Position numbers and translations under genes: made by a program. A stretch of 64,000 nt of DNA from Halorussus sp. MSC15.2 (GTDB taxonomy: Archaea > Halobacteriota > Halobacteria > Halobacteriales > Haladaptataceae): contig NZ_VSLZ01000001.1 in assembly GCF_010747475.1 (NCBI RefSeq), positions 62,001 through 126,000 of the forward strand, read 5' to 3'. Shown here piece after piece: positions 1-48,675 of the stretch. The notes beneath the pieces were generated by a model that saw only the letters and a list, made by a program, of their open reading frames with translations, ran no database searches and had not been told where the DNA came from. Each line of letters starts with the position of its first letter. Position 1 is the stretch's first letter.

Positions 1-867
1 CTCGTAGTTCTCGCGGACCTTCAGGCCGAGCATGCGGTCTTCCATCATGTCGGTGCGGCCGACGCCGTAACTCCCGGCGAGGTCGTTGAGGTACTCGATT
101 AGCTGGACGGCGGGCATCTCTTCCCCGTCTTCAACCGGCGGTTGAAGGCTCGTCGAGGTTCCCTCGACGGTGTCGATGGCGACCGGGTAGCCGTCCTCGA
201 AGGCGATTTCGATGGTCTCGAACTCGCCGTCCTCGGTCGTCTGCTGGCCGGGCGCGTCGGTCCACTCGTAGATGTCCTCCGGCGGGACGTAGCCGGGGTC
301 TTCGAGGTCCGCGCCCTCGACCGAGCGACTCCAGAGGTTGGTGTCGATGGACCAGTCGCCCTCGTTACCGCCCTCGACGGGGAGGCCCTTCTCGTCGGCG
401 TACTCCATCTCCCACTCGCGTGTCAGGCCGAGTTCGCGGACGGGCGCGATGACCTCCAAGTCCGAGTCGCGCCAGACCGCCTCGAAGCGCAGTTGGTCGT
501 TTCCTTTGCCGGTACAGCCGTGGGCGACGGCGTCGCAGTCGTTCTCCACGGCCACGTCGAGGATGGCCTCGGCGATGACGGGGCGCGCCAGCGCGGTGCC
601 GAGCGGGTAGCCCTGATACGTCGCGTTGGCCTTCACTGCGTCGAGGCACTGGTCGGCGAACGCGTCTTTCGCGTCCACGACGTAGTGGTCGAGGTCGAGC
701 GCGTCGGCGGTCTCCTCGGCCTCGTCGAACTCCTCGGCGGGTTGGCCGACGTCTACCGTGACGCCGATTACTTCGTCGTAGTCGTACTCCTCTTCGAGCA
801 GCGGGACGCATACTGTGGTGTCGAGTCCGCCCGAGAAGGCGAGCGCGACGGTGTTGTTATCTGTCAT
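1..867 (-). CDS. argG: Argininosuccinate synthase, C-terminus cut by window edge
   Basis: This enzyme condenses citrulline and aspartate to argininosuccinate with ATP, the penultimate step of arginine biosynthesis in the cytoplasm. The protein starts at an ATG and reads MTDNNTVALAFSGGLDTTVC, which holds the N-type PP-loop ATP-binding motif (SGGLDT). Further on it has AHGCTGKGNDQLRFE, a family signature for substrate binding. About 289 residues are visible and the family has about 400, so the missing part is the C-terminal multimerisation region. A TATA-like stretch lies about 27 nt upstream of the ATG. Its usual partner argH is not in the window and would be expected to the left. Confidence 0.96.
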   Translation of the reverse strand, partial: MTDNNTVALAFSGGLDTTVCVPLLEEEYDYDEVIGVTVDVGQPAEEFDEAEETADALDLDHYVVDAKDAFADQCLDAVKANATYQGYPLGTALARPVIAEAILDVAVENDCDAVAHGCTGKGNDQLRFEAVWRDSDLEVIAPVRELGLTREWEMEYADEKGLPVEGGNEGDWSIDTNLWSRSVEGADLEDPGYVPPEDIYEWTDAPGQQTTEDGEFETIEIAFEDGYPVAIDTVEGTSTSLQPPVEDGEEMPAVQLIEYLNDLAGSYGVGRTDMMEDRMLGLKVRENYE

Positions 868-35139: not shown

Positions 35140-35562
35140 TCACTCGCGTTGGAGTTCGTCGAACAGGTCCGCGACGCGCTCCTCGATTTCGTCGCGAATC
35201 GCCCGCACCGCGTCGAGGTCCCGTCCGTCTGGGTCGTCGAGTCCCCAGTCGCGGTTCTCGCCCGACCACGTCGCGGGACACACATCGTTCGCCGAACAGC
35301 CCATCGTGACGACGTAATCGCACTCCTGCAACTCCTCGTGAGTCACTTCCCGCGGCGTCCAGTCGGAGAGGTCCATTCCGCGCTCGCGCATGACCTCGAC
35401 CACTTCCTCGTGGACGTGGTCGGCGGGGTCGGTGCCGCCCGTGACGATTGCCACGTCCTCGGCCCCGCGCTCCTCGCGTTCCCGCTCGGCGAACGCCGTC
35501 GCCATCTGGCTCCGCCCGGCGTTCTGGACGCAGACGAAGGCGACTCGGGTCTCGTCGCTCAT
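35140..35562 (-). CDS. Low-molecular-weight phosphatase / ArsC-type arsenate reductase
   Basis: A 140-residue protein with the LMW-PTP/ArsC phosphate loop near the N-terminus (VAFVCVQNAGRSQMATAFAE; C-x5-R-S is seen as CVQNAGRS). Later it has cysteines in VVTMGCSANDVCPATW and the DWGLDDPDGRDL segment that carries the catalytic Asp, all typical of thioredoxin-coupled ArsC. It may reduce arsenate or dephosphorylate tyrosine. It starts at ATG 35562, which overlaps a short duplicate of its own 5' end. No arsenite transporter is adjacent. Confidence 0.87.
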   Translation of the reverse strand: MSDETRVAFVCVQNAGRSQMATAFAEREREERGAEDVAIVTGGTDPADHVHEEVVEVMRERGMDLSDWTPREVTHEELQECDYVVTMGCSANDVCPATWSGENRDWGLDDPDGRDLDAVRAIRDEIEERVADLFDELQRE

Positions 35563-35693
35563 CGCCCTACCTCCGCGGTCGCCATCTGACTCCGTCCGGC
35601 GTCCCCGCGAGCGAATCGAGCGGGGGCTCGAAGCGGCTCTGCCGCTTCGGTGTTCTGGACGCAGACGAAGGCGAGTCGGGTCTCGTCGTTCAT
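35559..35693 (-). pseudogene. Duplicated 5' end of the ArsC-like gene carrying a 51-nt insertion
   Basis: From ATG 35693 a 44-codon frame reads MNDETRLAFVCVQN, then 17 foreign residues, then AGRSQMATA and a few more to a TGA. Without the insertion it matches the first 23 residues of the intact gene. The TGA overlaps the real gene's ATG (ATGA). The phosphate loop is split by the insertion, so it cannot be active. The insertion (35602-35652) carries a 43-bp two-hairpin element also found at 48049-48091. Confidence 0.75.
35607..35649 (+). mobile_element. 43-bp two-hairpin element, copy B
   Basis: It begins GCGAGCGAATCGAGC and has a first hairpin (CGAGC, four bases, GCTCG), then a second with a 9-bp stem (CGAAGCGGC, loop TCT, GCCGCTTCG). 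The total length and the 22-nt spacing from start to second stem match the copy at 48049-48091. The flanks (GCGTCCCC and GTGTTCTG) are degraded 8-bp copies of the undisturbed target GCGTTCTG. Confidence 0.6.
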
Positions 35694-35800
35694 CGCTCCG
35701 CCTCCGCGGTCGCCGTCTGCAATCGAGCGTTCACGTCGCTCTGACGGTTGTCCTCACTCTCTTCGGAAACGCGTCGCCGGAGACGGTCGGCTTCGGGCAT
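35690..35800 (-). CDS. 36-aa small acidic/basic ORF upstream of the ArsC duplicates
   Basis: From ATG 35800 the frame reads MPEADRLRRRVSEESEDNRQ and ends TATAEAER at a TGA overlapping the next ATG (ATGA). The end resembles the tail of the duplicated fragment (TATAEVGR), so it belongs to the same tandem arrangement. The three frames overlap in series and could be translated in a coupled way. It has no recognised family and may be the leader of the original gene. Confidence 0.4.
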   Translation of the reverse strand: MPEADRLRRRVSEESEDNRQSDVNARLQTATAEAER

Positions 35801-47997: not shown

Positions 47998-48675
47998 ATG
48001 AGACGGGAGGTGCGTGAACGCGCCGAGACGTACTTCGACAGCGTCTCGGCGAGCGAATCGAGCCGAGGCTCGTCAGAGCGAAGCTCTGACGGCGTCTCGC
48101 CCGCCCACGACTGGCATCACGTCGAGCGCGTGGCCCGAATCGCCGAGACGCTCACCGAGGAGTACGACGCGGACGAGGACGTGCTGTTCGCGGCGGTCTG
48201 GCTCCACGACATCGGCCGAGCGAGGGAGGACCGCGGCGAAATCGACGACCACGCCGAGTGGGGCGCGCGGGAGGCGGGCGAAATCCTCCGGGACCTCGGC
48301 GCGGACGCCGAGACCGTCGAGGCGGTCCAGCACTGCGTCCGGGCGCACCGCTACTCCAACGACGTGGAACCCGAGACCCGCGAGGCCGAGATTCTCTCCG
48401 ACGCAGACAACCTCGACGCGCTCGGCGCGGTCGGAATCGCCCGGTGTTTCTCCTACGGCGGCGAACTCGGCAGTCCGATACACGACCCCGACCTGCCGCC
48501 GGAGGCGGACGACAGCCCGGTCGGCGAGACGCAGTTCAACCACCTCCACAAGAAAGTCCTCGCGCTCCCCGAGCGAATGTACACAGAGGCGGGCCGGGAA
48601 GTCGCCGAGGAGCGCCGGGCGTACGTTGCCGAGTTCGCCGAGCGATTCGAGCGTGAAGTCGCGGGGGATGCCTAA
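47998..48675 (+). CDS. HD-domain phosphohydrolase with an in-frame 51-nt insertion
   Basis: A 225-residue HD-superfamily hydrolase. The metal motif is spread over AHDWHHVERVARIAETL, VWLHDIGRA and DDHAEWGAREAGEILRDLG. Substrates in this group are nucleotides or phosphomonoesters; not known here. Residues 18-34 (ASESSRGSSERSSDGVS) interrupt the usual join between YFDSVS and PAHDWHH. This is a 51-nt in-frame insertion at 48049-48099 made of a 43-bp hairpin element plus an 8-bp duplicated target. The added serine-rich loop sits just before the catalytic HD region and may be tolerated. Confidence 0.85.
   Translation: MRREVRERAETYFDSVSASESSRGSSERSSDGVSPAHDWHHVERVARIAETLTEEYDADEDVLFAAVWLHDIGRAREDRGEIDDHAEWGAREAGEILRDLGADAETVEAVQHCVRAHRYSNDVEPETREAEILSDADNLDALGAVGIARCFSYGGELGSPIHDPDLPPEADDSPVGETQFNHLHKKVLALPERMYTEAGREVAEERRAYVAEFAERFEREVAGDA
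48049..48091 (+). mobile_element. 43-bp two-hairpin element, copy A
   Basis: Begins GCGAGCGAATCGAGC, has a first hairpin (CGAGC, four bases, GCTCG) and a second with a 9-bp stem (CGTCAGAGC, loop GAA, GCTCTGACG). It is flanked by exact 8-bp repeats GCGTCTCG at 48041-48048 and 48092-48099. Element plus one target copy is 51 nt, so the host frame is kept. The first 15 bases and the 22-nt spacing match copy B at 35607; the second stems differ in sequence but both pair perfectly. Confidence 0.65.

Follow-up and report, generated by a model that had tools for sequence, protein, structure and literature searches.

The two 51-nt units described here are probably copies of a short, non-autonomous, REP-like mobile repeat that has spread through haloarchaeal chromosomes, is moved as folded single-stranded DNA, and may have its stems kept paired by template switching. 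Both were located in a window of 64,000 nucleotides (the whole stretch analysed) from Halorussus sp. MSC15.2 (contig NZ_VSLZ01000001.1, positions 62,001 to 126,000 of the forward strand), in which the original prediction had placed two 43-bp sequences sharing their first 15 bases, at 48049-48091 and 35607-35649. Both sequences were present, but the inserted unit was 51 nt rather than 43 bp long, at 48044-48094 (copy A) and 35602-35652 (copy B). With a covariance model, copy A (48040-48094) scored 71.6 bits (E 4.7e-13) and copy B (35598-35652) 69.5 bits (E 1.3e-12); both copies were among the 37 training sequences of the model, and the scores were far above chance.

Copy A was a complete unit of the form T-hairpin 1-GCT-hairpin 2-GCG on the forward strand (48044..48094), lying in frame and in sense orientation within the gene for an HD-domain protein of 225 aa (47998..48675, forward strand; Pfam PF01966, E 2.8e-16). 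Hairpin 1 (CTCGGC / GAGCGAATCGA / GCCGAG, 48045..48067) was followed by the linker GCT (48068..48070), assigned from linker conservation over 93 distinct copies, by hairpin 2 (CGTCAGAGC GAA GCTCTGACG, 48071..48091) and by the tail GCG (48092..48094); the final G of hairpin 2 and this tail together formed a GGYG end. Both hairpins were assigned by DNA folding and by covariation within the family. The 5' target tetranucleotide was AGCG (48040..48043), which was GGCG in G004 and in the empty site L250.

Copy B, also a complete 51-nt unit on the forward strand (35602..35652), was antisense to a truncated tandem duplicate of the start of an LMW-PTP/ArsC-like gene. Its hairpins, assigned by DNA folding, were CCCCGC / GAGCGAATCGA / GCGGGG (35603..35625) and CGAAGCGGC TCT GCCGCTTCG (35629..35649), and its linker GCT (35626..35628) and tail GTG (35650..35652) were taken from the covariance-model match. 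The tetranucleotide before it was GGCG (35598..35601), and the intact paralogue carried the same GGCGT preceding TCTGGACG. That paralogue (35140..35562, reverse strand; Pfam PF01451, E 4.6e-30) served as an empty site for copy B within the window. The duplicate itself (35563-35700) comprised the first ~40 codons of the gene and was absent from G004.

Hairpin 1 had been drawn in the original prediction as CGAGC-N4-GCTCG. This was incorrect; the N4 pairs with the four bases upstream of the 15-mer (CTCG/CGAG in copy A, CCCC/GGGG in copy B), and with the two pairs supplied by the ends of the 15-mer both copies have a 6-bp stem around the loop GAGCGAATCGA. The two-hairpin structure was the minimum-energy fold of both copies when folded as DNA. 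The element had been reported as present twice in the window; the two copies stand, and a third, divergent member of 45 nt was found on the forward strand at 128..172 (T CTTCAACC GGC GGTTGAAG GCT CGTCGAGG TTC CCTCGACG GTG), with a model match at 124-172 (27.8 bits, E 5.1e-4). Its hairpin 1 was a plain 8-bp stem with a 3-nt loop and without the GA/GA core described below.

The covariance model (R1) and its alignment were built from 37 copies, and structure statistics were taken from 93 distinct copies. The unit was T–hairpin 1–GCT–hairpin 2–GYG, mostly of 48-53 nt and of 45-53 nt overall. In hairpin 1, six covarying pairs led to a GA/GA internal mismatch that was invariant; beyond it came two further pairs, covarying for the most part, and a triloop of the form GNN, usually GNA. 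Hairpin 2 stood on a CG..CG base, likewise invariant, with about six pairs above it that mostly covaried. Changes on both sides were found at 15 of the 16 tested pairs, in agreement with the proposal that structure rather than sequence is kept. Paired cells amounted to 97.4%, against 76.6% in shuffled alignments and 28-43% with slid partners. The inner pairs and those formed by the ends of the 15-mer were absent from the model, so their covariation was not built in. The GA/GA core was intact in 91 of 93 copies, with covarying pairs on either side, and the GCT linker was similarly conserved (T in 93 of 93 copies, C in 91, G in 86). The four-nucleotide tail was GGCG or GGTG in 142 of 145 copies, and G-U pairs occupied 8 of 744 cells in hairpin 2. 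Some members, including the one at 128-172 of the window, had a plain short-loop hairpin 1.

By analogy, the GA/GA core fits a sheared tandem G·A motif with a GNA minihairpin cap, stable in single-stranded DNA; d(GCGNAGC) hairpins are established as stable single-stranded DNA minihairpins. A pseudoknot between GCTCG and a CGAGC loop was considered and rejected, as GAAC or GAGT loops occur with GCTCG unchanged.

The whole collection was scanned with a pattern consisting of the 15-mer, N4 and GCTCG. Many haloarchaeal contigs were matched, those of Halorussus foremost, and the N4 was complementary to the four bases preceding the 15-mer (CCTC/GAGG, CTGC/GCAG, CTTG/CAAG, ATTT/AAAT, CGTT/AACG). All four flanking Watson-Crick pairs were present in 32 of 39 haloarchaeal matches vs 0 of 43 others, and the scan had selected nothing on the complementarity of these pairs. 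The matches in Myxococcales and other bacteria were rejected as members, being without the stem. The Myxococcales MAG ACE_MYX12 (L055, L056, L058, L080 and similar loci) contained many copies of an unrelated GCGAGCGAAGCGAGC-GTAG-GCTCG repeat with no stem pairing. Carriage by viruses was likewise rejected; the single pattern match in viral contigs was poorly paired.

Across 247 evenly sampled genomes of the phylum, the family was present in 41 of the 43 genomes of this haloarchaeal order and matched in 0 of the 204 genomes from the rest of the phylum. Genome searches gave about 20 copies at E<1e-3 in the genome that holds the window and 15 to 128 per genome in 17 congeners; degraded copies and partial remnants also occurred. 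Copies also formed head-to-tail arrays, for example at C3:702721-702987 (L208) in the genome that holds the window, where the period was 53 and each unit began with the GGTG that ended the one before. This array comprised about five units of two alternating types, with a period of 106 at 97% matches, a pattern that amplification of a dimer would give. Some intergenic copies (L320, L332, L375 and similar loci) were enclosed by larger palindromes to which their flanks gave rise and which may be terminators or composite repeats, and at L345:330-382 an Rfam leuA-Halobacteria RNA (RF03001) lay upstream of a copy.

Empty sites from related genomes were obtained at eight loci and indicated precise insertion after a GGCG-like tetranucleotide. 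Of the 15 HD-domain gene orthologues aligned from the genus, 12 lacked the copy A insert, which was shared with G004 and G016; it measured 51 nt in nearly every row of the orthologue alignment. For copy B the adjoining intact paralogue was the empty site, and G004 carried neither the duplicate nor the element. A third copy from the genome that holds the window, of 48 nt at C7:105500, was absent from G004 (89% DNA identity) and from the other orthologues read. Five further loci had the same precise junctions, among them an HMG-CoA reductase-like gene (filled in G004 only) and a HAD-like hydrolase gene; gene names at these five loci were read from translated flanks. The HAD-like site (L441, L430, L442 and L451, with L429 empty) was filled in G004 and G014, held remnants in G005 and G001 and was cleanly empty in G000, the closest relative of G004. 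Judged from sequence, this pattern may mean that the element was lost precisely or that an empty allele replaced the filled one by exchange. Further covarying copies had been sought, as had host orthologues sharing the inserts; many dispersed covarying copies and insert-free homologues of both host genes were found, and the proposal of a mobilised miniature element survived.

Target tetranucleotides seen were GGCG, GGTG, GAGG, GGGG, GACG and GGCA, the first four being the commonest 5' flanks, and a GGYG-like tetranucleotide was the only sequence that recurred across sites. The preference for GGCG-like targets may stem in part from Asp-Gly codons tolerant of inserts. Copy A had been described as flanked by an 8-bp target duplication. 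The exact 8-bp repeat exists as sequence, but a duplication of fixed length does not: the terminal repeat measured 8 nt at both copy A and the C7 copy (12 nt at copy A if one mismatch is allowed), copy B had 5 nt with one mismatch, and the repeats at other sites were shorter. The tail remained GGYG even at GACG or GGGG targets, so that it belongs to the element, and the direct repeat reflects resemblance to the target. The exact GCGTCTCG repeat at copy A arose because a hairpin 1 arm happens to match the downstream codons. No terminal inverted repeats were present in the family.

Orthologous insertions gave some indication of how the stems stay paired. Near a UspA-like gene, the arms of hairpin 1 were CCCGGC/GCCGGG in G007, TCTGAC/GTCAGA in G002 and CCTGCC/GTCAGG in G004, with hairpin 2 nearly identical in all three. 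Among the copy A orthologues, hairpin 1 was CTCGTC/GACGAG in G016 vs CTCGGC/GCCGAG in G000, and the hairpin 2 loop was GAA in G000 and G016 and its reverse complement, TTC, in G004; family-wide, GAA and TTC loops were each found 12 times. Template switching in replication makes paired changes in one event (PMC8794818). On the basis of these two loci, it would plausibly explain the pairing of the stems without selection at each site; selection on DNA structure may be an alternative cause. Formation of the stems anew from the target was rejected. Many copies in G011 and G013 share the imperfect G·T pair CTGCGC/GTGCAG, which indicates that stems were inherited from parent copies and not made at insertion. 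A 5' arm that fails to match the target was also found at several copies, the C7 copy and copy B among them.

Under the proposed mechanism, the GA/GA core of hairpin 1, the GCT linker, the CG..CG base of hairpin 2 and the GYG tail would be the features by which an enzyme recognises the element. The folded single-stranded DNA would then be cut out and joined to the 3' side of a tetranucleotide that matches, in the manner of HUH/Y1 transposases acting on IS200/IS605. After insertion, and with less certainty, replication may fold back on the hairpin so that one arm templates the other; such copying would account both for the flip of the loop between GAA and TTC and for the paired substitutions seen where insertions are orthologous. 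Insertion is precise and lies 3' of a tetranucleotide, the end of the element is target-like, the hairpins are subterminal, and inverted repeats and a fixed duplication are lacking; as an analogy of outcome, these features resemble the marks of HUH transposition.

A mobilising enzyme was sought among 18 genomes of the genus, and none was found. PF01797 (Y1) matches were found in 10 of them; the 8 with no match included one with 125 copies. Copy number did not correlate with enzyme gene counts over the 18 genomes (Y1 rho 0.18, TnpB rho 0.04). When R1 was run over 56 Y1/TnpB loci from the genus, no convincing case emerged of the element as a transposon end; two matches fell below E 1e-3 (L395, L404), neither established as such an end. 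Linkage to Y1 or TnpB was therefore rejected, the counts being uncorrelated and the sampled loci without the element. An autonomous relative was not found in the genus, and no credible Rfam family covered the element at the ten loci searched.

Several other explanations were weighed. The description given in the original prediction implied a MITE of a DDE transposon with an 8-bp target duplication, and exact 8-bp repeats do flank copy A and the C7 copy. This origin is very improbable: terminal inverted repeats are lacking, the length of the direct repeat depends on the site, copies at GACG or GGGG targets have a 5' tetranucleotide unlike the 3' one, and the near-constant GGCG/GGTG tail, whatever the target, assigns the 3' repeat to the element. 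The case for an insert kept for its protein product comes from copies inside genes. These encode similar acidic linkers, e.g. GVSASEASGGSSDESDG, and acidic Ser/Gly-rich linkers (VSASEASGGSSDESDG) suit halophilic proteins, so that the hairpins could be a by-product. The frame was also kept. With coding status inferred from GC at codon positions, length was divisible by three in 28 of 29 intragenic vs 64 of 111 intergenic copies, and under a stricter coding test 15 of 15 were in frame, with lengths of 48 or 51. Most of the copies examined were intergenic, however, often with lengths that are not multiples of three and with the same covariation, and synonymous choice does not predict paired changes. 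The protein-level account is thus largely refuted and would be the least probable of all. A selected RNA element, acting in transcripts as a processing, termination or binding site, had also been suggested. It could draw on the covarying stems and on the orientation of intragenic copies (26 sense vs 3 antisense); tandem GA and GNA motifs are also known in RNA. This suggestion was weakened by the intergenic copies, 44 of which were on the same strand as the upstream gene and 33 on the opposite strand, since so little preference argues against a function at the transcript level; copy B is itself antisense. The absence of a matching Rfam family, the scarcity of G-U pairs in hairpin 2 and insertion into unrelated genes, which resembles tolerance and not function, leave the RNA reading improbable.

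Less remote, though still unlikely, is that the repeat was formerly mobile and is now dormant, in which case most genomes have lost the IS200/IS605- or RAYT-like enzyme behind its spread and the present copies are relics diversified by mutation and template switching. The Y1-free genomes of the genus, some of them copy-rich, are in keeping with this, as are the degraded copies and partial remnants, and CGTC-tagged REPs without a dedicated transposase provide a parallel (PMC3733652). Against it stand the species-private insertions: the C7 copy and copy B are absent from G004, and the HMG-CoA reductase-like insert occurs in G004 only. Read from sequence comparison, these suggest activity since the species split, although gain or loss of a copy at the level of strains was not observed. 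The reading of a REP-like repeat moved as folded single-stranded DNA is thus retained as the probable one.

No earlier description of the family was found in the literature searched, which mostly excluded subscription journals. In the way it works the family is akin to REP-type and RPE-type repeats, but it does not carry their tags, having no GTAG and no invariant CGTC. It shares with REP/REPIN sequences and their RAYT enzymes (PMC3116915, PMC2817692) short dispersed hairpin repeats, compensatory stem changes, clusters and a proposed Y1 single-strand transposition, the HUH/Y1 route having been put forward for REPINs (PMC3116915). Unlike them, it shows no GTAG in its consensus columns, consists of two hairpins that differ from each other and keep a fixed order, not of a REP pair in inverted orientation, has no linked RAYT that could be found, resides in haloarchaeal hosts and includes many intragenic in-frame copies. 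The CGTC-tagged REPs, including some Rickettsia palindromic elements (PMC3733652), are likewise short and palindromic, in some cases in frame in genes, and have no dedicated transposase. They have a single hairpin with an 8-9 bp stem, a 4-5 nt loop and often a CCA tail, whereas the haloarchaeal family has two hairpins, the GA/GA core and a GYG tail. Many haloarchaeal copies start ..CGTC, but not invariantly, the first tag position being C in 51, G in 22 and T in 18 of 93. Like Rickettsia palindromic elements as described, the family inserts in frame into unrelated protein genes, here with empty orthologues. PATEs of Haloquadratum walsbyi (PMC3119063) are haloarchaeal, with palindromes near their ends, no inverted terminal repeats, no target duplication, and a conserved oligonucleotide at the terminus that has been interpreted as a targeting sequence. 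They share end palindromes with resident IS605-type transposons, a relation not found for the present family, and among them only the 52-bp core-deleted HqIRS46 form is near the 45-53 nt unit in size (PMC3119063). IS200/IS605 elements insert 3' of a short conserved oligonucleotide and have subterminal hairpins and no target duplication; the haloarchaeal repeat differs in that it lacks coding capacity, and an autonomous relative did not turn up in the genus. From DDE-type MITEs it differs in its element-encoded tail as well as in the missing inverted repeats and fixed-length duplication.

It is possible, although the weight of probability lies somewhat against it, that the family is an undescribed class: a two-hairpin single-stranded DNA mobile repeat, haloarchaea-wide, with the GA/GA core as recognition signal and a mover other than an IS200/IS605-type Y1 enzyme, that adds in-frame acidic linkers to proteins. 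The repeats appear to form a REP/RPE-like family that extends through an entire archaeal order, and even genes for conserved enzymes (HMG-CoA reductase-like) offer clean pairs of empty and filled sites. It is relevant to annotators and structural biologists that many haloarchaeal insertions of 16-17 aa ("VSASEAS...") are inserted repeat DNA. Orthologous inserts in protein genes provide a natural test of whether pairing is maintained by selection or by template switching, and an orphan element of this kind makes the question of what moves REP-like repeats without a RAYT testable in cultivable, genetically tractable organisms.
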